Assembly: GCF_004362045.1 (NCBI RefSeq)
Contig: NZ_SNWX01000005.1
Location: forward strand, 1 to 64,000
DNA from: Halanaerobium saccharolyticum
GTDB taxonomy: Bacteria; Bacillota; Halanaerobiia; Halanaerobiales; Halanaerobiaceae
Direction of reading: 5' to 3'
Length of the DNA: 64,000 bases
Positions 9,337 to 28,614 of the stretch are shown piece after piece (the first letter of the stretch is position 1; the number at the start of each line of letters is the position of its first letter). A model generated the notes under the pieces. It was not told the origin of the DNA and did not search any database. It worked only from the letters and a program-made list of their open reading frames with translations. A program made the position numbers and the translations under genes.

Positions 9337-9356
9337 TTTTTAAAAAGGTGAAAAAA

Positions 9357-11195
9357 TTGAGTGAAAGTATTTTTGAAATTAATAAATTAACCACTTTTGA
9401 TGATGACTGGTCTAAGATAGAGGATGTCAATTTAAAATTAGAAAGCGGCAATATTTTTGCTCTGGTTGGAGAAACTGGAGCTGGCAAAACAACTTTTGTC
9501 AATGTTTTAGCCGGTATAATTGATGATTATGATGGTGAAATTATTTACAAGAATAGATTGTTAACTAAAAAAGAGCAAAAGAATATTTTTGGTTTTATCT
9601 ATCAAAAATCAACTTTAATAAATAAGATGACAATTGCAGAAAATTTATTTTTTGTGGATTTTCCTACCAGAAAAATAGGTCCTTTTATCAGCTGGAAGCA
9701 GGTTAAGAAAAAGGCAAAAGAATACCTGGATTATTTTGATATTGACTTTGATTTGAATAAAAATGTGGGAGTTTTAACTTCAGAGGAAAAGAAAATAATT
9801 GAATTTATTAAAGTATTTATAAAAGATCCCGAAATTATTATTTTACATGAGCCTACCACAAATTTAAGTATTGACAGCTTAGATAAATTATACAGTATTA
9901 TCAAAAAATTAAGAGAAAAAAACAAAATAATAATTTATGTAACAAAGCAGTGGGAAGAGGGACTGAAAGTAGCTGACAAAATTGCTGTTTTAACTAAAGG
10001 GAAAATTGCAGGAGTTTTAGAGGCTGAAGAAGCAAAGAAGAATCCTAAAAAGTTATTAAATTTATTTTTGGGAATTTATGATGAAAGAGTAAAAAAAGAT
10101 GAGACTCCTGATGTTATTGACTCAATTTTTAAAGCAGCTGAGTTTTTGACATCTGAATATGAATTAAAGGACGTACTTAAATTCTTAGCAGAAAAAGTTA
10201 CAGAAATTATGGGAGCGGATTCCTGTGTTATTAATTTAGTTGATGAAAAGACTGAAACAATAATTGATAGAATTGAATTTAAAAAAACTCAGAATAAGAT
10301 TCCACAAATCAAAAAAGATAAAATATTTGAGATAACAAAAGATAATAAATTATTCTATACCAATTCCAGGGAAAAGGGATTTAATTTCCTATTTGATGGT
10401 GACAGTTATGGAATTAATACTGTCATTATGTCTTCAGTTCTGATAAGATCACAGCTGGCAAGTGTAATAAAACTGCATTATAGAAATATTTATGTCTACT
10501 CTGAGATTGAATGGAAGTATCTTTCTACCTTCGCCAGACAGGCAGCTATTGCCATTGAAGACACAAGATTAATGGGAAGATCAGCCCTATTACAGGAAAG
10601 TCATCACAGAATAAAAAACAATCTGCAGTCTATTATTAGTCTGATATCTATTCAAAAAGACTTTTTAAAAGAGGATGTAGATTATGATTCAGTAATTAAT
10701 ATCTTAAATGATATTATGTCGAGAATAAAAAGTATTGCTGCAGTACATGATCTTTTATCAAAAGACAAAATGGGCAGAAGTATAATTAACATTAAAGAAA
10801 TTATTAATAAAGTATTAGATTTTGCTGCCTATCCATCATTGAATAGAGAAATAAAAATAAAAAAGGAACTGGAAGATATATTTATTCCATATAATAAGGC
10901 TACTACGATAGTCTTAATAGTTAATGAATTGGTAGCTAATTGTTATGAACACGCTTTTTCAGATCAGGATTTTGGAAAAATAATTGTGAAATGCAAAAAA
11001 ATAAATGATAGAATATCGCTAGTTATTCAGGATAATGGTAAGGGAATGCCGGAAGATTTTGATGTTGAAAACTCTACAACTTTAGGTTTAAGTATTGTTT
11101 ATTCGATTATTAATAATGAATTTAATGGTAAAATAGATTTTAACGCTTTAGACAAAGGAACAAAAGTCACAATTAAAATTCCATTTAAATATTAG
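9357..11195 (+). CDS. Fusion of degenerate ABC ATPase, GAF domain and HisKA_2 histidine kinase
   Basis: About 612 residues. Residues 1-235 resemble one CUT2 sugar ABC ATPase module with an intact Walker A (GETGAGKTT, near 39-47). The signature is lost (LTSEEKK where LSGGQ-like is expected), Walker B aspartate is a histidine (ILHEPTT, near 160), and the H-loop histidine is replaced (YVTKQW). Residues about 255-400 look like a GAF domain. Then comes a HisKA_2 dimerisation motif HHRIKNNLQ (about 416-424) and an HATPase domain with NELVAN (about 522) and DNGKGMP (about 558). No membrane segments. It probably binds ATP and acts as a soluble sensor. The TTG at 9357 has an AAAGGTG site; GTG at 9348 is the alternative. 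The cognate regulator follows after a 13-base gap. Confidence 0.85.
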   Translation: MSESIFEINKLTTFDDDWSKIEDVNLKLESGNIFALVGETGAGKTTFVNVLAGIIDDYDGEIIYKNRLLTKKEQKNIFGFIYQKSTLINKMTIAENLFFVDFPTRKIGPFISWKQVKKKAKEYLDYFDIDFDLNKNVGVLTSEEKKIIEFIKVFIKDPEIIILHEPTTNLSIDSLDKLYSIIKKLREKNKIIIYVTKQWEEGLKVADKIAVLTKGKIAGVLEAEEAKKNPKKLLNLFLGIYDERVKKDETPDVIDSIFKAAEFLTSEYELKDVLKFLAEKVTEIMGADSCVINLVDEKTETIIDRIEFKKTQNKIPQIKKDKIFEITKDNKLFYTNSREKGFNFLFDGDSYGINTVIMSSVLIRSQLASVIKLHYRNIYVYSEIEWKYLSTFARQAAIAIEDTRLMGRSALLQESHHRIKNNLQSIISLISIQKDFLKEDVDYDSVINILNDIMSRIKSIAAVHDLLSKDKMGRSIINIKEIINKVLDFAAYPSLNREIKIKKELEDIFIPYNKATTIVLIVNELVANCYEHAFSDQDFGKIIVKCKKINDRISLVIQDNGKGMPEDFDVENSTTLGLSIVYSIINNEFNGKIDFNALDKGTKVTIKIPFKY

Positions 11196-11208: not shown

Positions 11209-11790
11209 ATGAAGAAGTTGAAAATTCTAATAGCTGAAGATGAATATCTGGTTCTGATGGGATTGAAAAGCAATCTTAAAGAACTGGGACATGAAATCAT
11301 TGCAGAGGCTATGAATGGTAAAGAAGCTATTGAACTAGCAAAAGAAAAATCTCCAGACCTGATCATTGCAGATATAAATATGCCTGAGATTGATGGCATA
11401 GAAGCTGTTAAACAGATTAATAAAGATCAGGTAATTCCAAGTATTATTGTAACCGGGTATTCTGATGACGAACTAATTGAAAAAGCAAGCAAGGTAGGAG
11501 TTTTTGCCTATTTAGTTAAGCCAGTCGGCCTGGAAGAACTGAAGGCTTCAATAATAATTGCAATGAATAAATACGAAGAATTTAAAGAAGTTAACAGAGA
11601 ATTAAAAGATCAAAAGAAGGCTTTAGAAAACAGAAAACTTATTGAAAGAGCTAAAGGGATACTAATGGATACACTTTCTCTGACTGAAGCCGAAGCAATG
11701 AAAAAATTACAGCAGAAAAGTCAGGAAGAAAATTCCAAACTGGTTGAAGTGGCAAAAAACATTATTGAAATGAATGAATATTTAAACTGA
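11209..11790 (+). CDS. ANTAR-type response regulator (RNA-binding antiterminator)
   Basis: A 193-residue protein with a receiver domain and a C-terminal ANTAR domain. The receiver has the phospho-acceptor aspartate D55 in IIADINMPEIDG and the conserved lysine K104 in YLVKPV. The ANTAR part (about 137-193) has the hallmark ERAKGILM with alanine, lysine and glycine at 148-150, then the helix with EAMKKLQQ. ANTAR proteins bind paired hexaloop hairpins in leader RNA and prevent termination. A matching structure lies directly downstream at 11925-12027. The ATG at 11209 has TAGGAGA 9 bases upstream. Its kinase partner is the gene just before it. Confidence 0.93.
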   Translation: MKKLKILIAEDEYLVLMGLKSNLKELGHEIIAEAMNGKEAIELAKEKSPDLIIADINMPEIDGIEAVKQINKDQVIPSIIVTGYSDDELIEKASKVGVFAYLVKPVGLEELKASIIIAMNKYEEFKEVNRELKDQKKALENRKLIERAKGILMDTLSLTEAEAMKKLQQKSQEENSKLVEVAKNIIEMNEYLN

Positions 11791-11863: not shown

Positions 11864-11892
11864 TTGATTAATTATAATTTATTGAATATAAT
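11864..11892 (+). promoter_or_regulatory. Promoter of ANTAR-controlled leader
   Basis: TTGATT at 11864-11869 and TATAAT at 11887-11892, spacer 17. The predicted start near 11899 is about 25 bases before the first hairpin, leaving a short leader that begins with the regulatory structure. Confidence 0.65.
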
Positions 11893-11924
11893 GTTTTTAG
11901 AAAATAATAAATATTAAATACTTT

Positions 11925-12036
11925 GTGCTGATGGGGGTACATTGTATTAAGGTGATGGAGCCTTGTATTATATTTTTGGGTGAACTATATTTAATTAGTT
12001 CATTATCTAAAGATATAATGCAGGGCTTTTTATGTT
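11925..12036 (+). ncRNA. Leader RNA with two ANTAR-like hairpins overlapping a terminator
   Basis: Hairpin 1: GTGCT (11925-11929) pairs with GGTAC (11936-11940) around loop GATGGG. Hairpin 2: AAGGT (11949-11953) pairs with GCCTT (11960-11964) around loop GATGGA. Both sit in the shared context TGATGGRG, 8 bases apart. A terminator forms from 11959-11973 pairing with 12013-12027 (15 bp, two wobble pairs) with an inner stem TGAACTA/TAGTTCA, followed by a T-rich tract from 12027. The 5' arm of the terminator includes the 3' side of hairpin 2, so the two folds exclude each other. This is the layout of known ANTAR antitermination targets. The loops have A and G three positions apart but offset by one from the published A1/G4 rule in my folding. 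Confidence 0.75.
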
Positions 12037-12205: not shown

Positions 12206-13123
12206 TTGAAAAAATTAGTAGTATTATTAACTTTGGTTTTAATGGTTTCTGTATTTAGCGGAGTAAGTTTTGCGCAGGATGATGATCAAATTTCAATTGG
12301 GATGTCTTTTCAGGAAATGAATAATGAGTATTTTATAGTAATGAGAGAAGCTCTAGAGTCAGCTGCTAAATCTATTGGAGCGGAAGTAATGTATACAGAT
12401 GCCAGACATGATGTAAATAAACAGATCAGTGATGTGCAGGATATGGTAACAAAAGGCATTGACATCCTATTACTTAATCCCGCTGATTCTGTAGGCGCTG
12501 AAGCAGCCGTTCAATATGCAAAAGATCAGGGAGTTTATGTAATTGCGATTGATGCTCAAGCTGAAGGTCCAATAGATGCTTTTGTTGGTTCTAAAAACTA
12601 TGATGCAGGTTATAAAGCAGGTCAAGAAATGGCAAAGGATCTGAATGGTGAAGGTAAAGTTGCTATTTTAGATGGTATTCCAGTAGTACCAATCTTAGAA
12701 AGAGTTGAAGGATTTAGAGCCGCAATTTCTGAATATCCTGATATTGAGATTGTAGATGTACAGAATGGTCAGCAGGAACGTTCCAAAGCGATGTCAGTTA
12801 CAGAAAATATGATGCAGGCTAATCCTGATTTAGATGCTATTTTTAGTGTAAATGATACTGGAGCTTTAGGTTCTTTAGCAGCAATTAAAAGTGCTAATGA
12901 AGATATTAAATTGTACAGTGTTGATGGACATCCAGAAGCTATAGAAGCAATTCTTAATGGAGATATTTTTCAGGCGACAAGTGCTCAGTTTCCAAGAGAT
13001 CAGGTTAGGATCGGTATTGGCATTGGTTTAGCTAAATACTGGGGAGCAGAAAAAATGCCAGAAAAAATACCAGTACCTGTTAAATTAATTAATGATGAAA
13101 ATGCAGAAGGATTTAGCTGGTAA
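12206..13123 (+). CDS. Periplasmic sugar-binding protein of the ANTAR-controlled transporter
   Basis: A 305-residue RbsB-type binding protein. The signal peptide ends near A23 (SFA-QDD) and has no lipobox cysteine. The mature part begins ISIGMSFQEMNNEYF, typical of ribose- or polyol-type binding proteins, and later shows DARHDVNKQISDVQDM and FSVNDTGALGSLAAI. The start is TTG at 12206 with an AGGAGG site. It lies about 180 bases after the leader terminator and is followed by a 15-bp perfect hairpin. The dehydrogenase at the operon end suggests a sugar alcohol or rare pentose ligand, but this is uncertain. Confidence 0.87.
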   Translation: MKKLVVLLTLVLMVSVFSGVSFAQDDDQISIGMSFQEMNNEYFIVMREALESAAKSIGAEVMYTDARHDVNKQISDVQDMVTKGIDILLLNPADSVGAEAAVQYAKDQGVYVIAIDAQAEGPIDAFVGSKNYDAGYKAGQEMAKDLNGEGKVAILDGIPVVPILERVEGFRAAISEYPDIEIVDVQNGQQERSKAMSVTENMMQANPDLDAIFSVNDTGALGSLAAIKSANEDIKLYSVDGHPEAIEAILNGDIFQATSAQFPRDQVRIGIGIGLAKYWGAEKMPEKIPVPVKLINDENAEGFSW

Positions 13124-13174: not shown

Positions 13175-13192
13175 AAAAATGAGGTGTTTAAT

Positions 13193-14704
13193 TTGGATAA
13201 TATATTAGAAATTAAAAATGTTACTAAAGAATTTCCTGGAGTTCTGGCTTTAGATAATGTTAGTTTTAATATCAGAAGAGGAGAAGTCCATGTTTTAATT
13301 GGAGAAAACGGAGCAGGGAAGTCAACATTAATGAAAATTTTATCTGGAGTTTATCAGGCTAATAGTGGTAAGGTTTTATTAAATGGTGATGAAATTGATT
13401 TTAGTAATCCAAAAGAAGCTCAGTTAGCCGGTATCAGTATTATTTATCAGGAGTTTAGTTTAATTCCTTATTTAAATGCAGTTGAAAATATATTTTTGGG
13501 TAGAGAATATAAAAAAAATGGTGTTTTAGATAAAAAAAGAATGACTGAAGAAGCAAAAGACTTACTTGATACATTTGAGGTTGAAATTGATTTAGAAAAA
13601 TCGGTTAATCAATTGAGTGTTGCAGAACAGCAATTTATAGAGATTGCTAAGGCAGTTTCTATAAATGACAATGTTCTGATTTTAGATGAGCCAACTGCTA
13701 CTTTGACCAATCAAGAAACAGAAATTTTATTTAATTTAATTAGAAACTTAAAAGAAAAGGGAGTTACGATGATTTTCATTTCTCACCATTTAGAAGAAGC
13801 TTTTGAAATTGGAGATAGACTTACCTGTTTAAGAGATGGAAAATGGGTAGGAACAGAAAACATTTCTGATTTAAGCGAAAAGAAGATAATTAAGATGATG
13901 GTTGGGAGAGATATAGGTGATACTTTCCCCGATAGAGAAGGAAAATATCAAAAAGAAATTATGATTGAAGTTAACGATCTAAAAAGAAATGAAAAAGAAG
14001 AGTTTATTAATTTTAAGGTAAGAAAAGGAGAAATATTGGGGGTAGCTGGTTTAGTCGGTTCTGGGAGAACTGAAATGGCCAGAGCATTAATTGGGGCAGA
14101 TAAAGTTTTAAGTAAAGAAATATATATTAATGGAAAAAAAGTTGAAATAAATTCTCCTTCAGATGCTTTAGATAATGGAATTGGATTAATTCCTGAAAAT
14201 CGAAAATCTCAGGGCCTGATTTTAGGACTAAGTGTTAAAGACAATATTTCGATTAACAGTCTTGATAAAATCTTAAAAAGCAATTTATTTATCAATAAAA
14301 AAGAAGAGAAAAAAAGATCACAAAAATTAGTTGAAGATTTAAATATTAAAACTCCGAGCTTAAAACAAACTGTTAAAAATTTAAGTGGTGGTAATCAGCA
14401 AAAAGTAGTTTTGGCAAAATGGCTGGGTACTGATAGTAATGTTTTAATATTTGACGAACCAACTCGAGGTATAGATGTCGGTGCTAAGTTAGAAATTTAT
14501 AAATTGATGAATGAGTTAGTAGATATGGGAATTTCAATAATAATGATTTCTTCTGAATTACCAGAAGTTCTAGCAATAAGTGATAGGATTATGATAATGC
14601 ATAAGAATAAAATTAATGCTGTTTTAGATAACAATGAAGATGTAGATCAAGAGACTATAATGTATTACGCTACTGGAGGGGAACAATATGACAGGGCAAC
14701 TTAG
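13193..14704 (+). CDS. Sugar ABC transporter, dual ATPase (second system)
   Basis: About 503 residues with two ABC modules. Module 1 has Walker A GENGAGKST, VAEQQ in the signature region and ILDEPTATL with H-loop ISHH. Module 2 has GLVGSGRTE, LSGGNQQK and IFDEPTRGIDVG. It powers the importer formed with the preceding binding protein and the following permease. I prefer the TTG at 13193 because GAGGTG lies 6 bases upstream; GTG at 13184 overlaps that site. The stop overlaps the permease start by 17 bases, indicating translational coupling. Confidence 0.9.
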   Translation: MDNILEIKNVTKEFPGVLALDNVSFNIRRGEVHVLIGENGAGKSTLMKILSGVYQANSGKVLLNGDEIDFSNPKEAQLAGISIIYQEFSLIPYLNAVENIFLGREYKKNGVLDKKRMTEEAKDLLDTFEVEIDLEKSVNQLSVAEQQFIEIAKAVSINDNVLILDEPTATLTNQETEILFNLIRNLKEKGVTMIFISHHLEEAFEIGDRLTCLRDGKWVGTENISDLSEKKIIKMMVGRDIGDTFPDREGKYQKEIMIEVNDLKRNEKEEFINFKVRKGEILGVAGLVGSGRTEMARALIGADKVLSKEIYINGKKVEINSPSDALDNGIGLIPENRKSQGLILGLSVKDNISINSLDKILKSNLFINKKEEKKRSQKLVEDLNIKTPSLKQTVKNLSGGNQQKVVLAKWLGTDSNVLIFDEPTRGIDVGAKLEIYKLMNELVDMGISIIMISSELPEVLAISDRIMIMHKNKINAVLDNNEDVDQETIMYYATGGEQYDRAT

Positions 14705-15659
14705 TGATAAAATTAAGAATAACAATTTTAAAGAATTACTTAAAAAACCAGAAGTTTTAACTTTTGCCGGCTTAATCTTACTTTCTTTATTTATGTCGAT
14801 TTTTACAGATACTTTTCTTACAGGTAGAAACCTGGTTAATGTAGCTCGACAGATTTCAATTAATGGCATTATAGCTGTTGGGATGACCTTTGTAATTTTA
14901 ACAGCTGGTATTGACCTTTCAGTAGGGTCGGTTATGGCTTTTTCTGGAACAATGCTGGCTGCAGGAATGGCAGATTGGGGCTTACACCCTGTTTTAGCTA
15001 TATTTTTTGCTTTATTAGTTGGTGGTCTATTTGGATTAATTAACGGTACTTTAATTTCTTATGCTAATATGCCACCTATTATCGTAACCCTGGCAATGAT
15101 GGAAGTTCCAAGGGGACTGGCCTTATTGTATACAGGTGGATATCCACTCTCAGGTTTGCCAAGTTCTTTTTCTGTTCTCGGTAGAGGTTATGTATTTGGA
15201 TTTTTACCTGTACCTGTTTTGATAATGGCTGTGGTCTATTTAATTGCCTATATTTTGCTGACCCAGCTTCCATTCGGCAGATATATTTATGCAATTGGAG
15301 GTAATGAAGAAGCTGTTAGATTATCCGGTATTAAAGTAAAAAAATATAAAATATTTGCCTATGTGATCAGTGGTTTGACAGCAGCAACCAGTGGTATAGT
15401 TATAACATCTCGTTTAATGTCCGGTCAGCCAATGGCAGGTACTGGATTTGAACTTGATGCAATTGCTGCAGTTGTTTTAGGTGGAACAGATATAGCTGGT
15501 GGTCGAGGTAGTATTATCGGTACAATCATTGGGGCTTTTACTCTTGGAGTATTAACAAATGGTCTTAATCTTTTAGGAGTTTCCCCCTATGTTCAGAGAG
15601 TTTTTAAAGGGTTAATTATTTTATTAGCTATCTACTTTAGTTCTAAAAAGAAAAAATAA
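14688..15659 (+). CDS. Sugar ABC transporter permease (second system)
   Basis: A 323-residue RbsC-type permease with the usual GIDLSVGSVMAFSG motif after the first helices, the cytoplasmic loop VRLSGIKVKKYK and the GTDIAGGRGSIIG segment near the C-terminus. The ATG at 14688 lies inside the end of the ATPase gene with a GGAGGGGA site. It forms the channel of the ANTAR-controlled importer. The next gene is a zinc-dependent dehydrogenase 25 bases downstream, suggesting the imported substrate is oxidised directly. Confidence 0.9.
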   Translation: MTGQLSDKIKNNNFKELLKKPEVLTFAGLILLSLFMSIFTDTFLTGRNLVNVARQISINGIIAVGMTFVILTAGIDLSVGSVMAFSGTMLAAGMADWGLHPVLAIFFALLVGGLFGLINGTLISYANMPPIIVTLAMMEVPRGLALLYTGGYPLSGLPSSFSVLGRGYVFGFLPVPVLIMAVVYLIAYILLTQLPFGRYIYAIGGNEEAVRLSGIKVKKYKIFAYVISGLTAATSGIVITSRLMSGQPMAGTGFELDAIAAVVLGGTDIAGGRGSIIGTIIGAFTLGVLTNGLNLLGVSPYVQRVFKGLIILLAIYFSSKKKK

Positions 15660-15684: not shown

Positions 15685-16761
15685 ATGAGTGAATTACCAG
15701 AAAAAATGAAAGCTGTAAAGGCCTATGCACCAGAGGATTACAAAGTTGAGGAAGTTGATCGTCCAAAAGCAGATCCAGGAGAAGTAATTATTAAAATTAG
15801 TGCCTGTGGAATCTGTGGTAGTGATTTAAAAGCTTATCACGGAAGTGATATGTTCTGGGGTGGAGATGATCCCTGGTTAAAATCACCTGTTACTCCAGGT
15901 CACGAATTCTTTGGTACTGTTGTTGAACTTGGCAAAGGTGCAGCAGAAATGCATAAAGTAGAAATTGGAGATAGAGTTACAACAGATCAGATAAAACCCT
16001 GTGGAGAATGCCGATTCTGCAAAAGTGGAAAGTACTGGATGTGTGAAGTCCATGATATGTATGGATTCCAGAAAGATATAGCTGAAGGTGGCTGGGCAGA
16101 GTACATGAAGATTTATCCTAACTCTGAAATTTATAAAATACCTGATTCAGTAACTTTTGAAGAAGCAAGTTTAATTGAACCTATGGCCTGTGCTGTGCAT
16201 ACAGTTCAGAGAGCAGAAATAGAATTTGAGGATGTAGTTGTTCTGGCAGGAGCTGGAACTCTGGGTTTAAGCATGACTCAATTAATTAAAATGAAAACTC
16301 CAAAAAAATTAATTGTCCTAGATTTAAATGAAAAACGCTTAGAATTAGCTAAAAAACACGGGGCTGACATGGTAATAAATCCGGCAAAAGAGGATGCAAT
16401 TAAAATTGTTAAAGATCTAACTGATGGCTATGGCTGTGATGTTTATATTGAAGCTACAGGTTCTCCAGCAGGAGTAAAGCAGGGTCTTGAAATGGTTAGA
16501 AAATTGGGTACTTTCGTAGAATTTAGTGTATTTGGGGAAGAAACCACCACCGACTGGAGTGTTATTGGTGACCGTAAAGAACTTGATATTAGAGGTTCAC
16601 ATCTGGGACCATATACTTATCCAATAGTCATTGATTTACTTGATAGAGGTTTATTATCTGCAGAAGGTTATGTTGCAAAAACATATCATTTAGAAGATTT
16701 TGAAGAGGCATTAGAAGAAGCGCATGATAAAGATAATATTAAAGTATTATTAAAACCGTAA
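15685..16761 (+). CDS. Zinc-dependent medium-chain dehydrogenase, polyol type
   Basis: A 358-residue MDR-family enzyme. The catalytic zinc region has C41 and C44 in ACGICGSDLKAYHG and GHEF downstream. Four structural-zinc cysteines are in PCGECRFCKSGKYWMC. The nucleotide fold has AGAGTLGLS, followed by the acidic stretch VLDLNEKR that favours NAD. It resembles erythritol/threitol and other polyol dehydrogenases more than simple alcohol dehydrogenases. It is the last gene of the ANTAR-controlled transporter operon and is followed by a strong terminator. The likely role is oxidation of an imported polyol to a ketose; the exact substrate cannot be read from sequence. Confidence 0.82.
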   Translation: MSELPEKMKAVKAYAPEDYKVEEVDRPKADPGEVIIKISACGICGSDLKAYHGSDMFWGGDDPWLKSPVTPGHEFFGTVVELGKGAAEMHKVEIGDRVTTDQIKPCGECRFCKSGKYWMCEVHDMYGFQKDIAEGGWAEYMKIYPNSEIYKIPDSVTFEEASLIEPMACAVHTVQRAEIEFEDVVVLAGAGTLGLSMTQLIKMKTPKKLIVLDLNEKRLELAKKHGADMVINPAKEDAIKIVKDLTDGYGCDVYIEATGSPAGVKQGLEMVRKLGTFVEFSVFGEETTTDWSVIGDRKELDIRGSHLGPYTYPIVIDLLDRGLLSAEGYVAKTYHLEDFEEALEEAHDKDNIKVLLKP

Positions 16762-17159: not shown

Positions 17160-18758
17160 ATGGAAGCAGAAAAAAAGGAAATTATTAAAAATGGCAAGAC
17201 TATTTTAGGTATTGAGTTAGGCTCAACTAGAATCAAATCAGTTTTATTAGATGAAAATAATGAAACTATTGCAACAGGAAGTCATGGCTGGGAAAACAGC
17301 TATGAGGATGGGGTCTGGACCTATAGTTTAGAAGAAGTCTGGAAGGGGCTTCAAAGTAGTTATAAAAATTTAGTTGATAATGTTAAAGAAGAATATGATG
17401 TGGTACTTAGAAAAATAGATTCAATTGGTTTTAGTGCGATGATGCACGGATATTTAGCTTTTAATAAAGATGATGAACTTTTGGTTCCTTTTAGAACCTG
17501 GCGCAATAATTTTACTGGTGAGGCAAGTGAAAAATTAACAGAAATTTTTGATTATCCTATACCGCAAAGATGGAGTGTAGCCCATTTATATCAGGCAATA
17601 CTTAATGGGGAGGAACATGTAAGTGATGTTGATTATATAACTACTTTAGCCGGTTATGTACACTGGCAGTTATCAGGAAAAAAAGTATTAGGTGTTGGAG
17701 ATGCATCGGGAATGTTTCCAATAAATATAAAAACTGCTTCATTTAACAAAAGAATGTTTGAACAGTTTGATAACTTAGTTGAAGATAAAAATTACAGCTG
17801 GAAAATAGAAGATATTATGCCAAAAACCTTAGTTGCTGGTGATGAAGCTGGGAAACTAACTGATAAAGGAGCAAAATTATTAGACCCTACTGGTAATTTA
17901 GAGGCTGGTAGTCTAATGTGCGCCCCTGAAGGAGATGCTGGTACTGGAATGGTGGCAACAAACAGTGTTGCAGAGCGCACAGGTAATGTATCTGCTGGTA
18001 CATCTATTTTTGCAATGGTTGTTTTAGAAGATGAACTCAAAAAAGTTCATCCTGAAATAGATCTGGTTACAACACCATCTGGAAACTTAGTTGCAATGTC
18101 TCACTCAAATAACTGTACTTCAAACTTAGATTCCTGGATCAATCTCTTTAAAGAAGTTACTGAATCTCTGGGTTTTGATGTAGATATGAATACCCTTTAT
18201 GAGACTTTATATACTAAATCTCTTGCAGGAGATAAAGACTGTGGTGGACTTTTAGCCTATGGTTATCTTTCTGGAGAACATATTACTGGATTTGAAGAGG
18301 GAAGACCACTATTTGCTAGATCTTCTGAAAGTAATTTCAATTTAGCTAATTTTATGAGGGTCAATCTTCAGAGTGCACTGGGTGCTATGAAAATTGGGAT
18401 GGATATTCTCTTAAAGGAGGAAAATGTTCAACTTGATAAAATGCTGGGCCACGGAGGTTTGTTTAAAACTGAAGGAGTTGCACAGCGTTATATGGCAGCA
18501 GCTGTTAATGCACCGGTATCAGTAATGGAAACAGCCGGTGAAGGTGGTGCCTGGGGAATTGCTTTACTGGCTTCCTATCATTTAAATAAAGAAGAAGGAC
18601 AGAGCCTGGAAGAATTTCTTAATCAGGAAATCTTCAAAAACCAGAATGAAAAAATTGTTAAACCAGATCAGGAAGATGTTAAAGGTTTTGAAGAATTTAT
18701 GGAGAGATATAAAGCTGGACTGCCAATTGAAAGAGCAGCTGTAGAAAACTTAAAATAG
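17160..18758 (+). CDS. FGGY-family carbohydrate kinase, probable L-ribulokinase
   Basis: A 532-residue FGGY kinase with the N-terminal phosphate loop [17 protein letters not shown] and a C-terminal ATPase half containing [19 protein letters not shown] and [16 protein letters not shown]. The window has araA and araD but no classic araB, and a kinase for L-ribulose is needed between them. Clostridia use a distinct ribulokinase type (AraK) not orthologous to AraB, and this protein fits in size and setting. Adjacent araM and the ACAAGTT box at its promoter support an arabinose role. Other ketose substrates, including the product of the upstream polyol dehydrogenase, remain possible. The ATG at 17160 follows GGAGG. 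Confidence 0.82.
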
Positions 18759-18925: not shown

Positions 18926-20257
18926 ATGAATATTAAAAAAATATCAGGAGAAAAATGTTCCTGTGGAAAGGTCCATCAGATTCCAATTGAAGATGTGATT
19001 ATAGCAGAAAATGCTCTAGACAGAACCACTGCTCTGATTAAAGAGATTACTGAGGAGCAGAAAATATATCTGATAGTTGATCAGAACACCAAAAAGGCAG
19101 CTGGAGCAGAATTAAAAGAAAAATTATTAGCAGCAAATTTTGAGGTAGTTGAAATTATGCTGAAAGAAAGAGAAGAAGATGATCATTTAGTTCCAGAACC
19201 AGGAGCGCTTTTTAAAATTATCGAAAAAGTTGAGCCTGACGGTTATGTGCTGGCCTGTGGTTCAGGATCAATAAACGACTTAACAGCTTATGCTGCTCAT
19301 AAAATGCAGCTGCCTTATTCAGTCTTTGCAACTGCGCCATCGATGGATGGCTATGCTTCTTCTGTCTCATCAATTACTGTGGATGGAGTTAAAAAAACCT
19401 ACAGCACAACTCCACCAGAATTAATTATTGCTGATCTAAATATTTTAAAAGCTGCACCCTGGAAATTAATTCAATCCGGGCTGGGCGACCTTCTGGGTAA
19501 AGTTTCTTCACTCCTGGAATGGAAATTAGGAGTAGCTCTTTTTGATGAATATTTCTGTCAGGAAGCTTTTGATTTAGTAGAAAATGTGCTGAATGATTTA
19601 ATAAATAACTCGGAAAAAATTATTGCCAGAGAAGAGCTGGGTATTGAGATTTTAACCAAGGGATTAATATATTCTGGAGTTTCAATGATGATGGTCGGTA
19701 GTTCACGGCCTGCCTCGGGTACTGAACATCATATTTCTCACTTTTTTGATATGTATGCCGGTATTTTCCAGAAGTCAGTGCCAACTCACGGTATTAAAGT
19801 GGGAACTGCTTCCTTTATCAGCAGTAATTTTTACCTAAAATTACTGGAAACTGATTTTAATGAATTTGAATTAGAGCATAATCGAGAGGATAGAGAAAAA
19901 GAAATCCGGGAAGCATATTTAGATAAAGCGGATGGTATTTTAGAACTGCTTGATCAGCGCTGGGAACATGATTTAATTACTAAAGATGACTTGTTGAATC
20001 AGGAAGAGCAGATCAAATCAAATATCAGAGAATTTAAAGACTACCTGGAAAGTGTAGAAGGAATTTTAGCTGATTTTGGTTTTTTCGAAAGAAAAGATGT
20101 TAAAAATTTAAATCGGGATTGGCTCAAAAAAGCAGTGAATCACGGCTTTGAACTCAGATTCCGCTATACTATTTCCACACTTTTAAGACAGGCAGGTCTA
20201 TTAGAAAAATGGGGAGATCACGTACTGTCAAAACTTGATGAAAAATTGAGTGATTAA
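18926..20257 (+). CDS. araM: Glycerol-1-phosphate dehydrogenase AraM/EgsA
   Basis: A 443-residue iron-containing-dehydrogenase-fold protein matching AraM, which reduces dihydroxyacetone phosphate to sn-glycerol 1-phosphate. The N-terminus carries the short Cys/His segment CSCGKVHQIP. The nucleotide-binding region reads ACGSGSINDLTAYAAHKM, and the conserved ATAPSMDGYASSVSSI follows. Metal-ligand histidines are in SGTEHHISHFFDM and PTHGIKVG. The gene sits in arabinose operons of Bacillus, as it does here, although its link to arabinose breakdown is not understood. ATG at 18926 with GGGAGG upstream. A clear terminator follows. Confidence 0.88.
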   Translation: MNIKKISGEKCSCGKVHQIPIEDVIIAENALDRTTALIKEITEEQKIYLIVDQNTKKAAGAELKEKLLAANFEVVEIMLKEREEDDHLVPEPGALFKIIEKVEPDGYVLACGSGSINDLTAYAAHKMQLPYSVFATAPSMDGYASSVSSITVDGVKKTYSTTPPELIIADLNILKAAPWKLIQSGLGDLLGKVSSLLEWKLGVALFDEYFCQEAFDLVENVLNDLINNSEKIIAREELGIEILTKGLIYSGVSMMMVGSSRPASGTEHHISHFFDMYAGIFQKSVPTHGIKVGTASFISSNFYLKLLETDFNEFELEHNREDREKEIREAYLDKADGILELLDQRWEHDLITKDDLLNQEEQIKSNIREFKDYLESVEGILADFGFFERKDVKNLNRDWLKKAVNHGFELRFRYTISTLLRQAGLLEKWGDHVLSKLDEKLSD

Positions 20258-25104: not shown

Positions 25105-26955
25105 ATGAAAGAAAACTTATTGCTTAAAATCAAAATAAAATTATACCGTTATCTTCGAAAAACCCATATCCAGAATCGTTTAATAGTTCTATTTTTAATT
25201 CTTTCTTTATTTCCAATGTTAATTACAGGTATTTACTCCTATCAGAAATCAAGTCAGGCGATTCATGATAAAATTAATACCTATTCCGTGGAAGTAGTTA
25301 ATCAGGTGGCAAAAAATATTGAGGAAGAATTAACCAGAATGGAATATCAGACGATAGAAATTGCTTTTTCGGAACTTGTACAAAATACTCTCAGTAATTA
25401 TGAGCAGTTGAGTGAGTGGGAAGTCTATGATGCCAGATATCGCATGAGAGCTGAGATGGTACGCAAATTTTCTTTTTCCGAATATATCTCTGATGTTCAA
25501 TTATTTACTGATCAAGGAGATAAAATTATTGCTTATGGTGATACCGGCTTTACTTTAACTTTTAAGGATAATTTTAGAAAAAATTTACTTGCAGAAATTC
25601 AGGAAAAAAATGGGGCGCCTGTCTGGAAGGCGGTAGATTTTAGAGATGAGCTGCATCAGATCAGCCGTGTTTATCCCGAAAATACTCCTGAAAAGTCATA
25701 TGGAATAATTATTGGAAGAACAATTAAAGAATTATATGAAGGAACAGAGCTGGGCACTATTATTATCAGAATAAATGAAAATCTTTTTTCTGATATCTAC
25801 CGTAATATTGATTTAGGTCAGGGAACTGAAATTTTTATTGTTAATACAGAAGGTACTGTTGTTTCTACCAGAAATAATAATATCAGGTTTAATGAAAAAT
25901 ATCCAGAAGCTGAGCTGATTCAAAAAATTAGGGAAGATGCAGGTTCTACTAATGAAAGTTTCGAATTAGCAATTGCACAGGAAAAAAATATGGCTGCCTA
26001 TTCTCCAATAAAAGGTGTTGATTGGTATGTAGTCAGTACTATTCCTTTCTCTTATTTAAATAAAGAAACAGGTCAGATTGCTAAAGATATTATGGGAATT
26101 AGTTTGATTATTTTTCTGCTGGCAGTATTTTTATCATATATATTCACTAAAAGTATTTCAGATCCGCTTAATAATTTAGTTGAAGCCATGAATCAGGTTG
26201 AAGAAGGAAATTTAGAAGTTAAAATTGATGATCAGGCACAGGATGAGCTTGCTGAAGCCAGTTCTAATTTTAATCAGATGGTTGAAGAATTAAAAGAACT
26301 TGTGGAGGATGTTAAAGAAAAAGAAAAACAAAAAAGCAATTTAGAATTTAAAGCACTTCAGGCTCAGATTAATCCTCATTTTCTTTCTAATATTTTAAAC
26401 ACTGCTCGACTGCTGGCAGATATGCAGAATGCAGACAATTTGGAAAACTTTCTTTCTTCAGTAATCAACCTGCTTCATTTGAGCATGAATAATAAAGAGG
26501 ACTTCATTACGGTTGAGAAAGAAGTAGAGTATCTTGAGAGTTATCTAAATATCCAGCAGTTTAGACTGCACAATAAATTTGATGTTAAATTTGAAATAGA
26601 AGAAAATCTAATGGATTATAAAATACCTCGCTTTTTACTGCAGCCGGTTGTAGAAAATTCTATTATTCACGGTATTAGTGCTAAAAGTGGACAGGGAATG
26701 ATTGAAATAAAAGGTTTTACTCAAAATAGCCAGGTTATTTTTACAATTACAGATGATGGGATAGGAATGTCAGAATCTGAAATAGAAAATTTATTAAACG
26801 AAAAGAAGGAGAATAAAAATCAATTTTCTGGTATTGGGATTAATAACGTAAAAGAGAGAATTGAACTTTATTTTGGCAGAGAATATGGAATTGAAATTGA
26901 AAGTTTAAAAGGTTATTTTACCACTGTTAAAATTATTTTACCTGAAATCAATTAA
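25105..26955 (+). CDS. YesM-type sensor histidine kinase
   Basis: A 616-residue membrane sensor. One helix near residues 25-47, then a large extracellular Cache-type region, a second helix near 330-352, a HAMP segment (DPLNNLVEAMNQVEEGNLEV), a coiled coil, and a LytS/YesM-type kinase core. The phospho-acceptor histidine is H425 in ALQAQINPHFLSN. The ATPase domain has VVENSIIHGI, DDGIGMS and FSGIGINNVKERI. It partners the AraC-type regulator 45 bases downstream. Such pairs usually sense extracellular saccharides and activate adjacent transporter and glycosidase genes. Lying between the arabinose and xylan blocks, it may control either. Confidence 0.92.
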   Translation: MKENLLLKIKIKLYRYLRKTHIQNRLIVLFLILSLFPMLITGIYSYQKSSQAIHDKINTYSVEVVNQVAKNIEEELTRMEYQTIEIAFSELVQNTLSNYEQLSEWEVYDARYRMRAEMVRKFSFSEYISDVQLFTDQGDKIIAYGDTGFTLTFKDNFRKNLLAEIQEKNGAPVWKAVDFRDELHQISRVYPENTPEKSYGIIIGRTIKELYEGTELGTIIIRINENLFSDIYRNIDLGQGTEIFIVNTEGTVVSTRNNNIRFNEKYPEAELIQKIREDAGSTNESFELAIAQEKNMAAYSPIKGVDWYVVSTIPFSYLNKETGQIAKDIMGISLIIFLLAVFLSYIFTKSISDPLNNLVEAMNQVEEGNLEVKIDDQAQDELAEASSNFNQMVEELKELVEDVKEKEKQKSNLEFKALQAQINPHFLSNILNTARLLADMQNADNLENFLSSVINLLHLSMNNKEDFITVEKEVEYLESYLNIQQFRLHNKFDVKFEIEENLMDYKIPRFLLQPVVENSIIHGISAKSGQGMIEIKGFTQNSQVIFTITDDGIGMSESEIENLLNEKKENKNQFSGIGINNVKERIELYFGREYGIEIESLKGYFTTVKIILPEIN

Positions 26956-27000
26956 AATTAAGTAGGTAATTATCAATTTATTTTAGAAAGGATATTCAGA

Positions 27001-28614
27001 ATGTTAAAAGTAATGATAGTTGAAGATGATATTTTTGATTATACACATCTAAAAAATATAATTGACTGGAATCAAGAGGGTTTTCAAATATCGGAACAGA
27101 TTAAAAATGTAGAAGAGGCTGAAAATAAATTAGCAGAAGAAAATTTTGATATTTTGATTACTGATATGAAGATGCCCGGTAAAAGTGGAGCTGAATTGAT
27201 TAAATTTGCAGCTAAAAATTATCCAGAAATCAAAACAATTGCTGTAAGTGGATATAAAGAGTTTGATTATGTCAAAAAAAGTTTAAAGGCCGGAGCAGAG
27301 GATTATATCTTAAAACATGAATTAAGACAGGATAGTTTAACCAGCCTGCTTACCGCGCTAAGTAAAAAAATCAAGCAGAATAGAGAAGATAAAAATAGTG
27401 ATATTTTTGAAGAAAGTTTTTTTGTCGATCAAAAAAATATTTTAATTCAAAATTTTGCTGAAAAGCTGGTGCGGGGTCATTTTGCTAATAAAGAAGATTT
27501 AAAAAAACAAATTGAATTACTTTCTATTAATTTTGACCTTAAAAATATAGTAATTACAATTGGTCAGTTTGATAATTATCGGGAATTACAGCAAAAATAT
27601 TCTGCTGCTAAACTTTTGAATATTAAACGCTCCTTTATCAATATGGCAGATGAAATTTTAAAAGAGAATGGTAAATCTTTTGCAGTTTTAAAAGATGAGA
27701 AAAACTTTCTCTTTTTGTTTTCTTTTCAGGAAAATAGTGAATTGAAAATTAACAACAGCACCACTTCTGCTATCAATAGGATTAAATCCGCTTTAAAAAA
27801 CTATTTGAATATCACAGCCAGTTTTGCAGTAAGTAATATTCTGCAGAGCCCCCTGGAGATAGCAAAAAACTATAATCAAACATCAGAATTACTTGAAAAT
27901 AAATTTTATCAGGGTCAAGATATGATTATTTATCAAAATCAGAATAATCGAATTGATAATCAAAAATTTAATCTTGATATTAAAAGAGAAAAGCTTTTAT
28001 TAAAATATATAGAAAAAAAAGATGCGGCAGCTTTAAAAAATGAACTGGAAGATTTATTTAATGATATAGCTCGGATTAAACCCGGCTTATCTGTTTTAAA
28101 GATGACTCTTATTTCACTGATCAATATTATCAACAGCAGTATTAAAGATAAGGGCTTAAATGGGGAAAATATTTTTGAGGAAAAAGGTAATCCCTATCAA
28201 AAATTAGAAAAACTAAACTCTCTGGCAGAATTTAAAGATTGGATAATAACCATTTATCTTAATTTAGTTGAAGAATTGAAAGATAAAAATAATTACTCAA
28301 ATTTAATTAATCAGACATTACTTTATATAGATAAAAACTATGATCAGGATCTAACTTTAGGCCGGGTAGCTGCCGAAATCGGTGTCAGTTATTCTTATCT
28401 CAGTCGAAAATTTAAAAAAGAATGTGGACAGGGTTTTAGTGATTATCTAAATCAGCTGAGAATTAAAAAAGCTAAAAAAATGATTCGATCTGGCGATAAA
28501 AATATCAAAGAAATTGTTAATCTGGTTGGGTTTAATAATTACAATTATTTTTTTAAGGTATTCAAAGATTCAGAGGGAATGACTCCCAGTGAGTATGAGA
28601 GGAAAAAAAGATAG
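27001..28614 (+). CDS. YesN-type response regulator (receiver plus AraC HTH)
   Basis: A 537-residue regulator. The N-terminal receiver has acidic residues in VEDDIFDY, the phospho-acceptor D55 in ILITDMKMPG and a lysine in DYILKHE. A long middle region follows. The last 100 residues hold two AraC helix-turn-helix motifs (VAAEIGVSYSYLSRKFKKE and IVNLVGFNNYNYFFKVFK). AraC-family proteins often bind direct repeats; repeated elements occur upstream of the next operon at 28727-28764, so that operon is a plausible target. The pair with the YesM kinase is clear. A terminator follows. Confidence 0.92.
   Translation: MLKVMIVEDDIFDYTHLKNIIDWNQEGFQISEQIKNVEEAENKLAEENFDILITDMKMPGKSGAELIKFAAKNYPEIKTIAVSGYKEFDYVKKSLKAGAEDYILKHELRQDSLTSLLTALSKKIKQNREDKNSDIFEESFFVDQKNILIQNFAEKLVRGHFANKEDLKKQIELLSINFDLKNIVITIGQFDNYRELQQKYSAAKLLNIKRSFINMADEILKENGKSFAVLKDEKNFLFLFSFQENSELKINNSTTSAINRIKSALKNYLNITASFAVSNILQSPLEIAKNYNQTSELLENKFYQGQDMIIYQNQNNRIDNQKFNLDIKREKLLLKYIEKKDAAALKNELEDLFNDIARIKPGLSVLKMTLISLINIINSSIKDKGLNGENIFEEKGNPYQKLEKLNSLAEFKDWIITIYLNLVEELKDKNNYSNLINQTLLYIDKNYDQDLTLGRVAAEIGVSYSYLSRKFKKECGQGFSDYLNQLRIKKAKKMIRSGDKNIKEIVNLVGFNNYNYFFKVFKDSEGMTPSEYERKKR

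Follow-up and report, generated by a model that had tools for sequence, protein, structure and literature searches.

A probable variant ANTAR-type antitermination leader between a response regulator gene and a sugar importer operon in Halanaerobium saccharolyticum

The leader between an ANTAR response regulator gene and a sugar ABC operon in Halanaerobium saccharolyticum raises the question of whether sugar import can be controlled by an RNA switch of the ANTAR type. The window analysed here is a stretch of 64,000 nucleotides (contig NZ_SNWX01000005.1, positions 1 to 64,000), and the leader elements and genes between 9348 and 20257 lie on its forward strand. By far the best reading of the segment, and a very likely one, is an ANTAR-type transcription antitermination leader of variant form; binding, antitermination and signal are inferred, as there are no binding or termination data.

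Upstream of the leader lies a sensor kinase gene (9348–11195; the start codon may instead be TTG at 9357), whose product consists of a degenerate monosaccharide-importer-type ABC ATPase domain (residues about 1–240) followed by GAF, HisKA_2 and HATPase domains (Pfam matches: ABC_tran, 2e-21; GAF_3, 1.2e-06; HisKA_2, 5e-16; HATPase_c, 7e-13). It is followed by a REC-ANTAR response regulator gene (11209–11790; Response_reg, 3e-28; ANTAR, 3.6e-18), the sole ANTAR match in the whole genome. According to domain searches, the first gene after the leader encodes an RbsB-like sugar-binding protein (Peripla_BP_4; 12206–13123), and it is followed by an RbsA/XylG/AraG-like monosaccharide ABC importer ATPase (13184–14704), an RbsC-like permease (14688–15659) and a zinc-dependent dehydrogenase (15685–16761). 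An FGGY-family sugar kinase (17160–18758) and an AraM-like glycerol-1-phosphate dehydrogenase family protein (18926–20257) are encoded further downstream, for which a shared transcript is not shown. Upstream of the kinase gene are an AraR-type GntR/periplasmic-binding regulator, a second importer, L-arabinose isomerase (829 bits; cutoff 622) and L-ribulose-5-phosphate 4-epimerase (408 bits; cutoff 389). The locus is part of an L-arabinose cluster, while the importer's own sugar is not established. The same cluster holds a second two-component system (25105–28611), composed of a Cache-HAMP histidine kinase and an AraC-type response regulator, which adjoins GH43 and other carbohydrate genes.

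The leader contains two tandem hairpins. P1 (UGUGCU[GAUGGG]GGUACA; 11924–11941) is supported by fold, covariation and a match to our leader model R1, and is flanked by an outer 5-bp helix (11917–11921/11944–11948). P2, the putative antiterminator (UAAGGU[GAUGGA]GCCUUG; 11948–11965), is supported by fold and covariation and is mutually exclusive with an intrinsic terminator (11957–12031), whose 5' arm overlaps the loop and 3' arm of P2; the segment GCCUU at 11960–11964 belongs to the P2 3' arm and also begins the terminator 5' arm. In a fold restricted to the initial part of the transcript, P1 and P2 both form (-16.1 kcal/mol), and once the downstream arm is present P2 is predicted to be absorbed into the terminator. 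The terminator consists of 27 contiguous pairs and an apical helix followed by U5 (12027–12031), with a folding energy of -37.7 kcal/mol for 84 nt (z -8.7). The whole leader folds at -50.5 kcal/mol (z = -9.1), and none of 200 shuffled sequences is as stable. A sigma-A type promoter, TTGATT-17-TATAAT, is found at 11864–11892, and its 3' end is 31 nt upstream of P1. In the single-sequence scan, shuffled sequences yield as many promoters, which is no better than chance; the promoter is nevertheless likely to be real, because a comparable one, at similar spacing and position, exists 19–49 nt upstream of P1 in 14 of 16 homologous leaders.

Most of what the initial annotation had claimed about this RNA held. 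The tandem hairpins with GATGGG and GATGGA loops were confirmed, with the cores 6 rather than 8 nt apart, as were the sharing of the P2 3' side with the terminator, the T tract, the 17-base promoter spacer and the end of the regulator gene about 130 bases before the first hairpin (stop at 11790, 133 nt upstream of P1). Two further descriptions needed correction, namely a terminator of 15 bp and a promoter beginning about 25 bases upstream. The mutually exclusive ANTAR architecture that it proposed, and that an absence of covariation in homologous leaders would have refuted, is supported by strong covariation, and its sugar-importer target with a dedicated kinase is supported by conservation of the same arrangement in related genomes. 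The Rfam search that it suggested found no family at gathering score in the window; a permissive Rfam search of the leader gave only microRNA-type matches to the long hairpin, which were judged to be chance. The annotation missed both the failure of the loops at A1 of the canonical A1/G4 hexaloop rule, alongside replaced RNA-contact residues in the regulator, and the fusion of the kinase to an ABC ATPase.

The architecture of the leader is conserved beyond this genome. In related genomes the regulators are 46–70% identical and adjoin the same type of fused kinase, and a sugar importer comes next in nearly all of them; in two genomes a glycyl radical enzyme or its activase is the first gene, with importer genes behind. 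Matches to the kinase (E <= 1e-40) and to the R1 leader (E <= 1e-3) coincide exactly: of 61 related genomes, the same 14 have both, together with the regulator. Across 18 leaders we counted 30 occurrences of the hairpin pattern; shuffled sequences gave 0.5 on average and never more than 3. For 16 aligned leaders, 91% of cells are paired and the covariation score is 0.53, compared with 0.26 after shuffling (0 of 500), while a sliding-partner control reaches at most 0.21. In a second alignment, which includes five sites outside the training set, 95.5% are paired with a covariation score of 0.61 (0.27 shuffled); P1 is paired in 100% of these sequences and 5 of its 6 pairs are changed on both sides. 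Hairpin ends were trimmed by hand before alignment, which flatters the paired percentage somewhat but has less effect on covariation and on the sliding control. Conservation and covariation of the leader are shown by these results.

The site is also single in its genome: R1 matches only 11924–11964 (39.7 bits). A wider regulon was sought, but R1 found no second site genome-wide and a search with the 7-nt-loop pattern yielded none. R1 sites outside the training set were found in G042, adjoining an ANTAR fragment and a sugar-binding gene, and in Mesobacillus campisalis and Gracilibacillus halophilus, adjoining the kinase and an importer. Another, in an Oscillospiraceae genome, precedes an importer operon that ends in regulator and kinase. 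This leader (L157:1063-1150) heads genes for AnmK, importer ATPase, permease, binding protein, epimerase, ANTAR regulator and fused kinase, and therefore the switch would control its own regulators. A further site comes from a Caldilineae genome (Chloroflexota; L136:7179-7260), with 7-nt loops, behind an ANTAR regulator with F164, Q172 and N175 whose partner kinase has a PAS-GAF arrangement and no ABC domain. It precedes genes for alanine dehydrogenase and formate-tetrahydrofolate ligase, so the enlarged loop is not confined to sugar systems. A third ANTAR-like hairpin is present in leaders of G057, G058, G053, G033, G019 and Mesobacillus (L059, L060, L061, L063, L066, L129:7670-7800), in which the last hairpin overlaps the terminator and the first two are 15–50 nt apart where measured. 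By analogy with the EutV model, the third hairpin could possibly add regulator recruitment.

The loops depart from the known form. EutV and NasR targets are hexaloops with A1 and G4, closed by C:G (PMC3369931, PMC7496416). In the window folding predicts 6 nt for both loops, their stems meet the requirement of at least 3 bp (Ramesh 2012 definition), G4 is present in both and the overlap of P2 with the terminator is as required. However, position 1 is G in both loops, which fails the A1 criterion of the same definition, and no paired A1/G4 hexaloops were found at this site; the closing pair is U:G in both hairpins, which fails the C:G criterion derived from NasR SELEX (PMC7496416). Strict membership of the canonical target family is therefore lost at A1 and C:G. 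Most homologues carry 7-nt loops (7 or 8 nt) against 6 nt in the window, with G at the G4 place in every one aligned; most are closed by U:G, and a base other than A1 together with U:G recurs across genera and families. An alternative register with a bulged U and a hexaloop A-W-G-R-N-N was judged by hand and rejected: it breaks the closing pair in several homologues, and bases other than G occur at its fourth position. The register adopted here preserves pairing and the constant G4.

We also scanned for N-A-N-G-R in loops of 6–8 nt, with two hairpins and a terminator required. Leaders at Met172-type regulators all have an A1 hexaloop in P2 (AATGGG, AATGGC, AACGAC, AATGAT, AATGAA, AAAGGA, AAAGAA), and two P1 loops depart from this form (GATGAA, CATGACTG). 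At regulators with M164 and N175, all leaders found are non-canonical: the loops have 7 or 8 nt, except in the window and G012, where they have 6 nt and G1. Applied to 898 kb of other regulator loci, the scan gave three matches, all of which are also R1 sites. Canonical loops (A1-A-W-G4-R-N hexaloops closed by C:G) include those of eut leaders of the same genus. Both regulator types coexist in G005 and G025, and in G005 the two leader types remain distinct.

The residues that read the loop are changed as well. In EutV, Tyr164 stacks on G4 and Met172, which the structural study put forward as a loop-size gauge, inserts into the loop; Y164A weakens binding 55-fold, while M172A and the triple mutant N173A/R175A/R177A abolish it (PMC8934654). 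In the clade of the window regulator, position 164 is an invariant Met (aromatic in the EutV-type site), position 172 is Gln, Arg, Asn or Lys (Met once), and position 175 is Asn in all aligned members, with His in one distant member. The EutV-type contact set thus fails at three positions (164, 172, 175) and is met at 142, 149 and 160, since Arg142, Lys149 and Glu160 are invariant in regulator alignment A2. D55 and K104 are also invariant there, which satisfies the requirement for a phosphorylatable REC domain. Because the EutV contacts are replaced and there are no binding data, the case for RNA binding here draws on conservation, not on known contacts.

In the tree, all 23 fused-kinase regulators group in one clade (99/82); its sister (97/85) comprises three relatives lacking the ABC domain (Desulfosporosinus, G263). 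With a single exception, the non-canonical leaders go with one regulator clade, and the switch of loops and residues therefore amounts to one or two events, close to a single event. The Caldilineae regulator, which carries Phe164, Gln172 and Asn175, likewise goes with 7-nt loops, and this implicates position 172 more than 164. The changes in residues and loops are shown; the link between them is inferred from sequence alone and rests on known contacts, not on many independent replicates.

The N-terminal 240 residues of the kinase have sugar importer ATPases as their nearest NCBIfam models. A structure model of low confidence (pTM 0.39) gives this part an ABC fold, and the remainder of the model matches the light-activated histidine kinase EL346. 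The domain does not meet the motif test for an active ABC ATPase (Walker A, signature, Walker B DE, switch His): in the window kinase Walker A is intact, the signature reads LTSEEKK, Walker B has HE for DE and the switch His is replaced. Among homologues, Walker A is gone in many, and in most Walker B reads HE and another residue takes the place of the switch His; the basal kinases G059, G350 and G401 retain the Walker B Asp, and G059 the switch His. The domain is under constraint because it has its own conserved motif set (LSxEEKK, TKQWEEALK). The H-box and ATP-site motifs are invariant, and the criterion for a HisKA_2 histidine kinase is met. On domain homology only, it is likely that an importer ATPase domain became a non-catalytic sensor domain.

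Some copies of the locus are irregular. In G019 (L066) the kinase ORF, in a region about 1900 nt upstream of the regulator, is broken within its ABC domain into pieces of 149 and 455 aa, and the downstream permease is split too, by frameshift, pseudogene formation or sequencing error. G025 has two intact kinase copies and an apparently broken third (G025:C1:1308921-1309493; one in-frame TAG) beside them. In Bacillaceae (L127, L128, L129) the gene for the fused kinase is found upstream of the regulator but in opposite orientation, and Walker A has been lost from its ABC domain.

From the above, a mechanism can be proposed, in which RNA binding, its dependence on phosphorylation, the direction of control and the identity of the sugar are all inferred. 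RNA polymerase would start at the promoter at 11864–11892. By default P2 would dissolve into the long terminator and transcription would halt at about 12031, ahead of the sugar importer operon. The neighbouring kinase would phosphorylate the neighbouring regulator, and the phosphorylated dimer would bind P1 and then P2, keeping P2 closed so that the polymerase reads through. Regulators of this clade would read N-A-W-G4-R-N(-N) loops, usually closed by U:G, and not the canonical A1-A-W-G4-R-N with C:G. The kinase probably senses sugar uptake via its pseudo-ABC-ATPase front end; that this domain docks on the RbsC-like permease of the importer is a possibility only, speculative and based on domain homology.

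The rival explanation that survives best is that this is an ordinary ANTAR leader whose loop and residue differences are neutral drift without an altered recognition code, which remains possible. In its favour, A2-W3-G4-R5 and the general architecture are common to canonical leaders, E160, R142 and K149 are conserved, and the window loops remain 6 nt. Against it, the aligned clade members share M164 and N175 without exception, U:G closure and non-A1 loops recur across genera and families, mutation of the corresponding EutV residues abolishes or strongly cuts binding, and two genomes hold both regulator types, in one of which the leader types stay distinct. An opposite sign, with the regulator destabilising P2, promoting termination and repressing the importer, is very unlikely: the sign cannot be revealed by sequence, but known two-component ANTAR regulators antiterminate (PMC3369931, PMC8934654) and the overlap geometry makes stabilisation of P2 antiterminating. 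We give equally little weight to control by a riboswitch or another RNA-binding protein, e.g. of the BglG/SacY type. Sugar operons often use such antiterminators; however, no Rfam family matches at gathering score, the leader has tandem small hairpins and not one long RAT hairpin, and it is strictly linked to the ANTAR gene. A plain intrinsic terminator between two operons, with chance small hairpins and no regulator, is likewise very improbable: the terminator alone is very stable, but there are 30 patterned hairpins against 0.5 expected, compensatory changes in P1 outside the terminator, a promoter positioned to read directly into it, and strong matches only in genomes with regulator and kinase.

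The variant ANTAR leader can be compared with known systems. Like EutV/EutW of Enterococcus faecalis (PMC3369931, PMC8934654), whose model assigns dimer recruitment to P1 and blocking of the terminator to P2 (PMC8934654), it has a REC-ANTAR regulator with a kinase, tandem hairpins, overlap of P2 with the terminator, the loop core A2-W3-G4-R5 seen in eut-type leaders of the same genus, and conserved E160, R142 and K149. It differs in RNA (position 1 not A, mostly U:G closure, 7-nt loops in most homologues, some three-hairpin leaders) and in protein (Tyr164 to Met, loss of Met172, Arg175 to Asn, an ABC ATPase domain in the kinase), as well as in its sugar importer target. NasR and AmiR leaders also place ANTAR-read hairpins before a terminator and serve nitrogen targets; NasR is a one-component regulator with a SELEX preference for C:G closure with A1 and G4 (PMC7496416), while AmiR is controlled through direct binding of AmiC. 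Mycobacterium Rv1626 (1s8n), also REC-ANTAR and the nearest solved structure by sequence (1e-39), keeps the Met-Asp-Arg-Arg segment lost in the window clade and has an unrelated setting. The kinase N-terminal 240 residues are homologous to the first ATPase domain of RbsA/XylG/AraG importers, from which they differ by replaced signature, Walker B Asp and switch His, by loss of Walker A in many homologues and by fusion to GAF-HisKA_2. Neither ANTAR control of sugar import, an ABC-ATPase/histidine-kinase fusion nor an ANTAR branch with altered loops and altered reading residues was found in the open-access literature searched; subscription papers and supplements were outside its scope, and a prior description of any of these is possible.

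A bolder reading is that an ANTAR branch has switched its RNA code and become insulated from eut-type ANTARs of the same cell, with loop position 1 and the closing pair freed, a 7-nt loop, and aromatic 164, Met172 and Arg175 replaced, and that its kinase uses a dead importer ATPase to read the state of the sugar transporter. We hold it only tentatively, the balance being against it. The clade provides a natural experiment on how ANTAR domains read RNA, as it lacks Met172, the proposed loop-size gauge (PMC8934654), and has mostly enlarged loops, and synthetic regulation could make use of an orthogonal ANTAR/RNA pair. The window site would escape any search that requires A1/G4 hexaloops, so further regulons of this kind may have gone unnoticed. 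A cytosolic sensor of transport is suggested by the pseudo-ABC kinase, and ANTAR control would extend from nitrogen and ethanolamine metabolism to sugar uptake.
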